A DNA stretch of 64,000 bases from Rubritalea squalenifaciens DSM 18772 (lineage in GTDB: Bacteria; Verrucomicrobiota; Verrucomicrobiia; Verrucomicrobiales; Akkermansiaceae): positions 930,001 through 994,000 of the forward strand of contig NZ_FQYR01000003.1 in assembly GCF_900141815.1 (NCBI RefSeq), given 5' to 3'. Positions 57,775 through 62,795 of the stretch are shown piece after piece; position 1 is the first letter of the stretch, and each line of letters opens with the position of its first letter. The translations under genes and the position numbers were made by a program. The notes under the pieces were generated by a model. It was not told the DNA's origin, searched no databases, and saw nothing but the letters and a program-made list of their open reading frames with translations.

Positions 57775-58191
57775 GTAGCAAGTAGCAGGTAGGAAGTAGC
57801 TAAACAATGGAAGCCGCAAAGACATACAGAGACCTCAAAGTTTGGGAACGAGCACACGCATTCGTTCTTGAAGTCTATGCGCTCACAAAATTCTTCCCTG
57901 AAGACGAAAAGTACGGGCTCACCTCTCAATTACGTAGAGCGGCAATCTCAGTCCCCTCAAACATTGCTGAAGGATTTAGCCGATGGAATAACGAGGACAA
58001 ACTAAGATTTTATAACATTGCTGAAGCCTCTCTAGCCGAAGCTGACTATCAGTTGCTTTTAGCTAAAGATTTGAAGTATGCAGATCCAGTCATTGCTCAT
58101 AATCTCGCAGAAGAGACCAAACGGCTACTAACCAATTTCATCAAATCAATACGCCAGTATTGATAGCTACCAGCTACTCCCTACTAGCTAC
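57775..58191 (+). mobile_element. Heptamer-flanked four-helix-bundle element 1
   Basis: Left arm 57775-57802: four 7-nt units of consensus GTAGCWR. Right arm 58164-58191: four units of the same kind in inverted orientation, starting right after the ORF stop codon. Read as inverted repeats in perfect register, 21 of 28 positions match (22 pairs in RNA counting one G-U). The arms enclose only the S23-type gene. No transposase and no clear target duplication are present. Mobility is inferred, because three such units share one operon. Confidence 0.65.
57807..58163 (+). CDS. Four-helix-bundle (S23/23S-IVP-type) protein 1
   Basis: A 118-residue helical protein of the 23S rRNA intervening-sequence protein family (pfam05635-like). 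RDLKVWERAHAFVLEVYALT is helix 1, and YGLTSQLRRAAISVPSNIAE followed by GFSRW is the family signature. Family members form homopentameric four-helix bundles with a basic channel in the diversity-generating-retroelement relative Avd; no biochemical activity is established for S23 itself. The gene lies between nuoF and nuoG and is enclosed by inverted heptamer arrays. It is closely similar to the protein at 61312. No reverse transcriptase gene is nearby, so a DGR role is unlikely. Confidence 0.88.
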   Translation: MEAAKTYRDLKVWERAHAFVLEVYALTKFFPEDEKYGLTSQLRRAAISVPSNIAEGFSRWNNEDKLRFYNIAEASLAEADYQLLLAKDLKYADPVIAHNLAEETKRLLTNFIKSIRQY

Positions 58192-60001: not shown

Positions 60002-61297
60002 ATGGACATCGACCTAACATTCATCCTCATCACACTGGCAAAAATCATTGGTTTCACCTTTGTGCTGACTCTTCCTATCATCGCCTACTCCGTGTACGCC
60101 GAGCGCCGCTTCTCAGCGGTAATCCAGGACCGCGTAGGCCCAAACCGCACAGGTATTCCGCTTACCTTGTTCGGCTTCAAAAAGGACATCCCGCTGCAAG
60201 GTTTGCTCCAGCCACTGGCTGACGGTCTCAAGTTCATCCTCAAGGAAGACTTCGTACCGGCACACGTGAACAAGTTCTTCTTCTGGATTGCTCCAGCACT
60301 TACCATGGTGCCAGCACTCCTCACACTCGGAGTCATCCCATTCGGTTCGGAACTTTTCGGTGAAAAGCTGGTCATTGCTGACCTCTCCGTAGGTCCACTC
60401 TTCATCTTCGCGATCGCTTCCCTCTCCGTATACGGAATTACCTTTGCCGGATGGGCTTCCAACAATAAATACTCCTTCTTTGGTGGTGTTCGTTCCTGTG
60501 CGCAGATGATTTCCTACGAGATCGCCCTCGGCCTTTCCATCATCCCTGTGCTCATGATCTTCGGTGAGCTCAACCTGACCAAAATCGTTGAGTGGCAGGC
60601 TAACAACGGCTGGCTCCTGCTCCCCTTTACTTGGGAAAATGGTGCTTTCCAATTCGGCCTCTACGAATTTGGCGGAGCCTTCGGCGCCTTCCTGCTGATC
60701 CCACTTGTGATCTCCTTCTTCATCTTCACCATCTCCATCTTCGCGGAGACCAACCGCATGCCTTTCGACCTTCCTGAATGCGAAACCGAGCTCGTTGGTG
60801 GTTACCACACTGAGTACTCCTCCATGAAGTTCGCTCTCTTCTTCCTCGGTGAATACGCCGCGATGATTGTAGGTTCCGCCCTCATTGTCACCCTCTTCTT
60901 CGGAGGCTGGTCACTCGGTTTCGGTCTCGATGAACTCCTCAAGAATCCAGATGGTTCTTGGGTTGACTATGCTGGTCTCATCCACCTCGGCGCCTTCCTT
61001 ACCAAAGTGGTCGCCTTCATCCTGTTCTTCATTCTTGTTCGCTGGACTGTCCCACGTTTCCGCTACGACCAGCTCATGAAGCTGGGCTGGGTCGTCTTTT
61101 TTGAACTCGCCCTCATCAATATCCTCGTCGCAGCCCTCATCATCGCAGCACCTAGCATGCTTGAGCGTGGTGAAGGTGTGGCCGTAGCAGCCCTTGCCGC
61201 CGGAATTGTGATCTTCTCCGTAGTCATGGTCATGATCGCAAAGAGCCTCGATAAGAAGACAGAATCACGAATTAAGAATCAAGAACTAGCAAACTAG
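60002..61297 (+). CDS. nuoH: NADH-quinone oxidoreductase subunit H
   Basis: The ND1-like membrane subunit that forms part of the quinone tunnel. AERRFSAVIQDRVGPNRTG and ETNRMPFDLPECETELVGGY are unmistakable, and about eight membrane helices are visible. At 431 residues it is longer than the usual ~330-350. The last 12 residues (TESRIKNQELAN) are encoded by the left heptamer array of element 2 (61261-61288 and the following bases), so the element has supplied the current C terminus and stop codon. Confidence 0.95.
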   Translation: MDIDLTFILITLAKIIGFTFVLTLPIIAYSVYAERRFSAVIQDRVGPNRTGIPLTLFGFKKDIPLQGLLQPLADGLKFILKEDFVPAHVNKFFFWIAPALTMVPALLTLGVIPFGSELFGEKLVIADLSVGPLFIFAIASLSVYGITFAGWASNNKYSFFGGVRSCAQMISYEIALGLSIIPVLMIFGELNLTKIVEWQANNGWLLLPFTWENGAFQFGLYEFGGAFGAFLLIPLVISFFIFTISIFAETNRMPFDLPECETELVGGYHTEYSSMKFALFFLGEYAAMIVGSALIVTLFFGGWSLGFGLDELLKNPDGSWVDYAGLIHLGAFLTKVVAFILFFILVRWTVPRFRYDQLMKLGWVVFFELALINILVAALIIAAPSMLERGEGVAVAALAAGIVIFSVVMVMIAKSLDKKTESRIKNQELAN

Positions 61298-61711
61298 AAT
61301 CCAAGCGCATAATGAGCACCAAGATTCATTCATATGAAGATCTTGTAGCGTGGCAAAAGGCTCATGCTCTGGTGCTTAGAATCTACCAAACAACGAACAC
61401 ATTTCCAAAAGAAGAACTCTTCGGACTAACCTCCCAACTCAGACGCGCCGCAGTTTCAATTCCCTCCAATATTGTCGAAGGATTTGGACGCTGGGGCAGC
61501 AATGAAAAGAAACGCTTCTACAACATCGCTCAAGCTTCTCTGAAAGAAGCTCATTACCAACTCAGACTCGCAGAAGACCTCAATTATGCAGATACAACAG
61601 ACACAAGATTACTCGCGAATGAAGTCGAACGCCTTATCGGCGGACTAATCAAAGGTGTCCCGCATACAGAGAAAAGCTCTTCTTGATTCTCAATTCCTGA
61701 TTCCCAATTCT
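61261..61711 (+). mobile_element. Heptamer-flanked four-helix-bundle element 2
   Basis: Left arm 61261-61288: four 7-nt units of the type RGAATYR (three AGAAYYA-like, one CGAATTA). Right arm 61684-61711: four inverted units of the same type, the first beginning with the TGA stop codon of the enclosed ORF. Paired in register, 19 of 28 positions match, or 21 with G-U pairs, and most mismatches are transitions. The left arm overlaps the end of nuoH coding sequence; the right arm ends 8 bp before nuoI. Confidence 0.62.
61312..61686 (+). CDS. Four-helix-bundle (S23/23S-IVP-type) protein 2
   Basis: A 124-residue protein of the same family as the one at 57807: EDLVAWQKAHALVLRIYQTT for helix 1 and FGLTSQLRRAAVSIPSNIVE with GFGRW as signature; NEKKRFYNIAQASLKEAHYQ aligns with the equivalent helix of protein 1. 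The two are clear paralogues. It lies between nuoH and nuoI inside element 2. Its stop codon is part of the right heptamer array, showing that ORF and array behave as one unit. Function unknown. Confidence 0.88.
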   Translation: MSTKIHSYEDLVAWQKAHALVLRIYQTTNTFPKEELFGLTSQLRRAAVSIPSNIVEGFGRWGSNEKKRFYNIAQASLKEAHYQLRLAEDLNYADTTDTRLLANEVERLIGGLIKGVPHTEKSSS

Positions 61712-61719
61712 AAATTATA

Positions 61720-62289
61720 ATGGCCGAAGTAAAAAAACTGAAGCGACCTGAGCTCGACGCCGGTGAGAAAATCTATCTCATCGCCCTCGCCAAAGGTGCC
61801 CTCGTCACACTGAAGCACGCGTTCAAATCCATGATTGGTAAGTCACGCGGTGCCGATAGCCTCAAATCATCCGGCTTGGGTATCACCATGCAGTACCCTG
61901 AGCAGAAATGGGATGACCAGCTGCCAGAGCACTACCGGGGCGCCCCTGCCCTCGTTACTGACGAGCAAGACCGCGAACGCTGTGTTTCCTGCCAGCTCTG
62001 TGAATTCATCTGCCCACCTAAGGCCATCAAGATCATTCCTGGTGAGATTCCAGCCGATGACGAGTGGTCCAAAGTCGAGAAGCGTCCTAAGGAGTTCGAT
62101 ATCGACATGATCCGCTGCATCTACTGCGGCATGTGTGAAGAGGTCTGCCCTGAGCAAGCCATCTTCCTCCGCAAAGACTACGCCATCACCGGGACATCCC
62201 GTGAAGATATGGTTCACAACAAAGAGAAGCTGTACGAAATCGGCGGCAAGCGTGTCGGCCTCGTCAACAAGTGGAATGAACTAAAATAG
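61720..62289 (+). CDS. nuoI: NADH-quinone oxidoreductase subunit I
   Basis: The 23-kDa-type subunit with two [4Fe-4S] clusters (N6a/N6b), linking the peripheral arm to the quinone site. The Cys motifs are CVSCQLCEFICPPKAI and CIYCGMCEEVCPEQAI. The 189 residues are normal. It begins 8 bp after the right array of element 2 and its stop codon overlaps the first heptamer of element 3, so it is enclosed by elements on both sides. Confidence 0.95.
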   Translation: MAEVKKLKRPELDAGEKIYLIALAKGALVTLKHAFKSMIGKSRGADSLKSSGLGITMQYPEQKWDDQLPEHYRGAPALVTDEQDRERCVSCQLCEFICPPKAIKIIPGEIPADDEWSKVEKRPKEFDIDMIRCIYCGMCEEVCPEQAIFLRKDYAITGTSREDMVHNKEKLYEIGGKRVGLVNKWNELK

Positions 62290-62795
62290 TTAACAGTTAT
62301 CGGTTAAAAGTTATTAGAGATTTTGCAGCACTGGTGTGCTGATCTAAATATGGAAACACAGATTACATCATTTGAAGATTTGGAAGCCTACAAAGCATGT
62401 AGGGAGTTCCGCATTTTTGCATGTACTGTGATTGCAAAATCTCTCAACCAGCAAAAAGAATTTGAATTAGCTAAGCAGTTAAAAGATTCCGCTAGATCCA
62501 CAACAGCGAACATTGCCGAAGGCTACGGAAGGTTTCATCACCTCGATAATGCCAAGTTTTGTTCAAACGCTCGTGGCTCTCTCTATGAAGCTCTCGAACA
62601 CATCATCACAGCTAGCGACGAAGGATTTACTACAGAACAAAATCTATCTACCTCCAGAGAATACTTTGAAAAGTCAGTTAAACTATTAAACGGCTACATC
62701 AATTACCTCTACCGTTCCGCTAACAAATCAAAAAATCAATCAGCTCCCCAGAGCTGCTAATTAACCAATTAACACCTAACCAATCACTCTTAACT
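62288..62795 (+). mobile_element. Heptamer-flanked four-helix-bundle element 3
   Basis: Left arm 62288-62315: four 7-nt units RGTTAWN (AGTTAAC, AGTTATC and similar), starting within the nuoI stop codon. Right arm 62768-62795: four inverted units (plus a possible fifth at 62761-62767). In register, 21 of 28 positions match. The right arm ends 3 bp before the GTG start of nuoJ. The enclosed ORF belongs to the same superfamily as in elements 1 and 2 but to a different branch. Confidence 0.62.
62350..62760 (+). CDS. Four-helix-bundle (S23/23S-IVP-type) protein 3
   Basis: A ~136-residue helical protein. FEDLEAYKACREFRIFACTV is helix 1, and LAKQLKDSARSTTANIAEGY with GRFHH replaces the LTSQLRRAA-PSNI signature of the other two, placing it in a separate subgroup of four-helix-bundle proteins. 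NAKFCSNARGSLYEALEHII matches the next helix. I start at the ATG at 62350; the frame also has one at 62323. Located between nuoI and nuoJ in element 3. Function unknown. Confidence 0.85.
   Translation: METQITSFEDLEAYKACREFRIFACTVIAKSLNQQKEFELAKQLKDSARSTTANIAEGYGRFHHLDNAKFCSNARGSLYEALEHIITASDEGFTTEQNLSTSREYFEKSVKLLNGYINYLYRSANKSKNQSAPQSC

Follow-up and report, generated by a model that had tools for sequence, protein, structure and literature searches.

Three armed IVP genes in a nuo operon

The end of the window, i.e. the whole stretch of 64,000 nt of Rubritalea squalenifaciens DNA analysed here, carries a nuo (complex I) operon broken by three small IVP genes. IVP stands for 23S rRNA-intervening sequence protein, the family PF05635 / TIGR02436, also named four helix bundle protein. 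They lie between nuoF and nuoG (element 1), nuoH and nuoI (element 2) and nuoI and nuoJ (element 3), nuo gene names having been assigned by reading of the ORFs. The features are as follows.

57775..57802, + strand: element 1 left arm, 4 units GTAGCAA, GTAGCAG, GTAGGAA, GTAGCTA, i.e. GTAGCAAGTAGCAGGTAGGAAGTAGCTA
57807..58163, + strand: element 1 IVP gene, 118 aa, predicted four-helix bundle protein (AF2 pLDDT 95.5), PF05635 E 5e-36
58164..58191, + strand: element 1 right arm, inverted copy TAGCTAC, CAGCTAC, TCCCTAC, TAGCTAC, i.e. GTAGCTAGTAGGGAGTAGCTGGTAGCTA
61261..61288, + strand: element 2 left arm, AGAATCA, CGAATTA, AGAATCA, AGAACTA, inside the upstream nuoH ORF
61312..61686, + strand: element 2 IVP gene, 124 aa, PF05635 E 4e-36
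61680..61711, + strand: element 2 right arm, GATTCNN-type units, overlapping the stop of the IVP gene
62288..62317, + strand: element 3 left arm, AGTTAAC, AGTTATC, GGTTAAA, AGTTATT, AG, overlapping the nuoI stop codon
62350..62760, + strand: element 3 IVP gene, 136 aa counted from ATG, PF05635 E 1e-20
62759..62795, + strand: element 3 right arm, TTAACCAATTAACACCTAACCAATCACTCTTAACTAT

Element 1 thus consists, over about 420 nt, of a single PF05635 gene with inverted arms on both sides, each arm made of some 4-5 tandem 7-nt units, and complementary ends surround the ORF in the window elements. Period-7 arrays were detected by TRF at 57775-57800, 58164-58191, 61261-61285 and 62288-62313, and a period-14 array at 61680-61710, in the right arm of element 2. 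The three proteins score 124, 124 and 74 bits against PF05635 (cut-off 33.8) and 117, 116 and 73 bits against TIGR02436 (cut-off 24). The genome contains 6 PF05635 genes, and arms were found around all of them. No transposase is present between the arms: the IVP ORF fills the interval, its only matches being PF05635 and a sub-threshold bAvd. An Rfam scan of the 54-64 kb region returned no RNA family above gathering score and no rRNA, nor was rRNA found by Rfam in 20 element loci, most of them weakly armed. The nuoH frame continues through the left arm of element 2 (61255-61297), which adds a tail ending in TESRIKNQELAN.

Arms agree within elements and repeat with a period of seven

The left arm of element 1 had been proposed to match its own right arm at 21 of 28 positions, and alignment with the reverse complement of the right arm returned exactly this figure. 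The original prediction held further that each element has a heptamer of its own, shared by its two arms. In the genome of the window, own left and right arms of the six elements matched at 16.7 of 23 positions on average (11.4 for other pairings, 11.0 for shuffled partners), and among the 720 possible pairings only the true one reaches the observed mean, a test made slightly favourable by the fact that arm ends were picked with a joint heptamer.

For an unbiased test, we used raw 110-nt flanks, with no selection for good arms. A first set was built from PF05635 genes, present in 43 of 58 related genomes; 115 regions were retrieved and 109 intact elements kept. Across these 109 same-order elements, flanks scored 15.55 with their own partner and 7.07 with others (0/10000 permutations), and restricting the permutation within genomes gave 0/5000. 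A second set was gathered from Bacteroidota, Planctomycetota, candidate phyla, Acidobacteriota, Proteobacteria, Firmicutes, cyanobacterial plasmids and IMG/VR contigs, by a collection scan with a 7-sequence protein alignment, an alignment of 20 diverse proteins being too varied. Its 112 elements, from other phyla, viral contigs and plasmids, scored 15.61 with their own partner and 6.97 with others (0/10000 permutations). The flank tests in both sets, at about 15.6 versus 7.0, thus show that arms are alike within, and not between, elements, the opposite of the outcome that would have spoken against the prediction.

The period was visible in the same flanks, as a lag-7 autocorrelation of +0.10 upstream and +0.09 downstream, recurring at lags 14 and 21. 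This excess was absent from the ORF in both sets, and from the outer flanks in the first set. Period 7 was reproduced in the second set (113 elements). Heptamer arms around genes of this known protein family are thus genuine and widespread, and have gone largely unremarked.

The purine-G start noticed in the three window elements turned out to be part of a general plan. We phased the 138 two-armed elements that passed a score threshold, on which the exact figures depend: the unit begins with A or G (A 68%, G 17%), followed by an anchor G (87% overall; within a single element its conservation is 97%). The third base is mostly T or a purine, with C at 7%, and the remaining four positions are free. 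The median arm has 4.6 units.

Heptamers follow the protein

It had been suggested that heptamers define specificity classes matched to each protein, in which case proteins and heptamers should cluster congruently. Similarity at the five non-anchor positions of the heptamer increases with protein identity, from 0.41 below 50% identity to 0.54 at 50-60%, 0.69 at 60-70% and 0.83 above 70%. In the same comparison, 4-fold degenerate sites were identical at a proportion of 0.28-0.37, i.e. near saturation. Protein pairs with at least 60% identity had a heptamer similarity of 0.717, as opposed to 0.41-0.42 for unrelated pairs (0/5000 permutations), and the 58 such pairs located at different loci still reached 0.702 (0/5000 permutations). 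Heptamer conservation thus parallels that of the protein and goes beyond that of silent DNA.

Specificity classes are thus supported above about 50% protein identity. Sharp classes are not: below 50% identity, heptamer-protein congruence gave no signal, and over the whole set a rank Mantel test was not significant (131/999), a Pearson Mantel test on 89 elements giving 67/5000. At the nrdB-nrdA junction (11 genomes), a partial Mantel test given host divergence was not significant either (r 0.17, p 0.125). One genome counts against congruence at this junction: G009 has AGTGATC-type arms and a protein merely 47-54% like the other AGTGATC proteins found there. Arms of the five disrupted genes, a small number of cases, were not clearly weaker than those of intact genes (p 0.29).

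We searched for the protein residues that best predict heptamer sharing. Columns 57 and 65 of the element 1 protein, in the turn between helices 2 and 3, came first (z 8.3-8.4, null maximum 6.5); they are a lead only, since the pairs in this test are not independent.

Insertion sites and probable exchange

Among the 109 elements of the first set, 80 were found between two co-directional genes oriented the same way as the IVP gene, and arms mostly lie within about 10-20 nt of the neighbouring stop and start. The nuoH-nuoI gap measures 422 nt in the window versus 26-38 nt in four same-genus genomes without the element, and the nuoI-nuoJ gap 509 nt versus 32-49 nt in same-genus genomes without the element. 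These empty sites all come from other species, in which the sequence between genes has diverged too far for the junction, or a target duplication, to be located. The nuoI-nuoJ gap of another genome (G010, 270 nt, L137) seems to retain part of the element 3 ortholog, truncated and with arms that have faded.

An element occupies the nrdB-nrdA junction, recognised from Pfam matches, in 11 genomes. Two of them, G017 and G029, belong to one genus and have flanks 92-94% identical at this place; their IVP proteins are 60% identical, with heptamers AGTTTTC and AGTGATC, respectively. The G017 element resembles that of G023 (protein 79%) and the G029 element that of G035 (74%), both in the other genus, and heptamers match as well. 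This exchange pattern, a single illustration, fits an element moving or being replaced as one unit. Moreover, the elements that G017, G023 and G024 carry at nrdB-nrdA have exactly the same left arm, AGTTTTCAGTGTTCAGTTTTCAG, as the one that G040 carries at a metK-ahcY-like junction; the G040 protein is 59-65% identical to those of the other three genomes.

Plasmids carry such genes too. In Nostoc edaphicum, an IVP gene on a plasmid occupies the nrdB-nrdA gap, in reverse orientation. Other cyanobacterial plasmids have IVP genes between cas10/cmr3 and cas6/cas4 (L198:1198-1554 and L200:1198-1557), and three more (L385, L386 and L387) have IVP genes with 7-nt arms, AAAAGGG-type or, between nrdB and nrdA, AGTAGGG-type.

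Arms without a gene

Gene-less arms were sought in the window's own genome by pattern search. Four consecutive GTAGNNN units occurred 71 times. An island of contig C2 (G000:C2:295000-454999, L360-L367) contains 21 inverted pairs of such arms, 132-134 nt across, with inner hairpins and no IVP gene inside; these pairs carry the heptamer class of element 1. The island also houses most of the GAAT- and GTTA-class arrays of the genome, and ORFs cover about 49% of it in a simple scan. AGTTTTC arms gave 60-88 matches in G023 and G024. In a gammaproteobacterial genome having gene-less paired GGGAATC arms, the sole IVP gene is itself flanked by GGGAATC arms, in an accB-accC-like gap; its protein leaves the family profile after about 64 positions, and so may be damaged. 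We infer that gene-less arm pairs are the offspring of full elements. In G064 (L141), the nuoH-nuoI and nuoI-nuoJ gaps (143-144 nt) hold paired ACAGAATT-type arms and no gene.

A protein that may read its own arms

Both arms of an element share a heptamer, and heptamers are similar among closely related proteins, so that recognition of its own arms by the protein is probable. The element 1 protein has a close structural match in 2gsc (TM 0.92), and also matches 2rld. 2gsc, the structure of xcc0516 from Xanthomonas campestris ATCC 33913, is a homopentamer (PMC4990558, as well as the title of Lin et al. 2006 as listed in PMC10053308). The account that we favour, and judge rather likely from these sequence comparisons, is that the element's own pentamer-forming protein would bind the tandem units of the arms as its cognate sites, gene and arms evolving and travelling as a unit. 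Each unit would be a half-specified binding site, in which the universal purine-G anchor could be used by any IVP protein, while the bases after it would be read by the protein of that clade. An identical heptamer would be needed on both arms because the same protein would bind both. As the solved relative is a five-fold ring, several of an arm's units could be bound by a single ring. For both arms, the commonest length of the longest RG chain at 7-nt spacing is 5 (37 and 35 of 138 elements), versus 2 in control flanks; chains range from 0 to 16, so that the fit to five subunits is loose. Gene and arms would evolve and travel together, settling in gaps between co-directional genes of operons.

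TRAP, the trp RNA-binding attenuation protein, is an 11-subunit ring that reads regularly spaced AG-containing RNA triplets, one per subunit. We liken it to the proposed IVP ring purely by analogy, as fold, subunit number and RNA-triplet target differ.

Arms might instead be selected as an RNA stem, pairing in the polycistronic mRNA so that RNase III or an effect on translation renders the insertion harmless, as in the intervening sequences (IVS) of 23S rRNA. Elements are indeed found inside operons, on the coding strand; in the predicted minimum-energy RNA folds of the three window elements, 21-25 base pairs form between the arms; and RNase III cuts the 28-bp stem that closes the Coxiella 23S IVS (PMC4990558). 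However, a stem needs neither a 7-nt period nor an RG anchor, and arm mismatches compatible with G-U pairing were fewer than those of A-C type (89 vs 132, and 47 vs 81 in the first set). This is the opposite of what RNA pairing predicts, and we consider this explanation unlikely.

A purely mutational origin of the concordance appears quite improbable. Slippage would make the tandem heptamers, and template switching (quasipalindrome correction) would copy one arm to the other, with no recognition by a protein. One-sided expansion does occur in some arms, e.g. about 12 AGTGGGC units in G052, and the order of units agrees between arms in some elements (G017:C5, G055:C47), this agreement being weak overall (mean z 1.0). 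Yet such copying predicts neither a period of 7 in all clades, nor a universal RG anchor, nor a heptamer kept with the protein when silent sites are close to saturation. Copying between arms may add to concordance beside recognition.

Under passive co-inheritance, arms would go back to a single inverted pair, and would match the protein because the parts travel together. Joint travel does seem to occur at nrdB-nrdA (AGTGATC shared by G029 and G035, AGTTTTC by G017 and G023, across two genera), but co-inheritance is very improbable as a sufficient explanation: among proteins at least 60% identical, 4-fold sites are close to saturation, at 0.32-0.37 (floor about 0.27), versus 0.69-0.83 for heptamers (baseline 0.41).

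Relation to known systems

Recognition of the arms by the IVP protein, as favoured above, would give a role to a family with no known function (PMC4990558). The nearest known layout is the 23S rRNA IVS of Leptospira and Coxiella with an S23/IVP ORF, likewise a PF05635 protein in a short element with complementary ends (PMC4990558). The window elements are in nuo, and their relatives in nrd and other protein operons, rather than in 23S rRNA; their arms are tandem heptamers, and RNase III cutting belongs to the IVS whereas these elements are known from sequence. By location they are not 23S IVS, though they look to be built alike.

The same fold occurs in Avd, the accessory protein of diversity-generating retroelements (DGRs; 4dwl and 8ub7, TM about 0.75 to the element 1 protein); among DGR ribonucleoprotein structures, 8ub7 and 8ube contain a chain that matches this protein. 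In contrast to DGRs, the elements contain no reverse transcriptase, and their neighbours are nuo genes. The window proteins stay below the cut-offs of the Avd profiles (bAvd 28.5 bits vs 40, DivGenRetAVD 23-32 vs 80), and were not retained as DGR Avd.

Heptanucleotide repeats are over-represented in bacteria, with no explanation given (PMC4692102). Passages searched in published reports describe GGGAATC arrays in Xanthomonas, with 70-75 inverted pairs (Rehm et al., PMC4692102), TAACTGA repeats in Beggiatoaceae and cyanobacteria, for which MacGregor 2015 speculates on a repeat-binding mobile protein (PMC4679880), and paired heptanucleotide sites in Geobacter (PMC2700814). Like the arms, these are 7-nt units, mostly intergenic and, in Xanthomonas and Geobacter, often in inverted pairs; unlike the arms, the GGGAATC, TAACTGA and Geobacter repeats are not tied to PF05635 in those passages. 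Our literature search, mainly of openly available papers, found no link between heptamer repeats and PF05635.

Once the two are linked, each acquires a function that can be put to the test: the protein would bind the ends of its own element in a sequence-specific manner, and the repeats would be the sites that it binds. Heptamer and protein also co-vary over hundreds of natural pairs, so that the family already supplies data from which a recognition code could be worked out. More tentatively, and with doubt prevailing, PF05635 proteins might form pentameric rings bacteria-wide, each subunit reading a single 7-nt repeat through a constant RG contact and a code that differs between clades, in which case many known heptanucleotide repeats (GGGAATC, TAACTGA and others) would be element ends or their gene-less offspring.

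A second, unrelated family has a similar layout. Around PDDEXK_3 (GxxExxY) genes (L139:1009-1431, L388-L417), flanking repeats show no peak at lag 7 and one at lag 9 (about +0.05), and one such gene occupies the nuoH-nuoI gap of G011.
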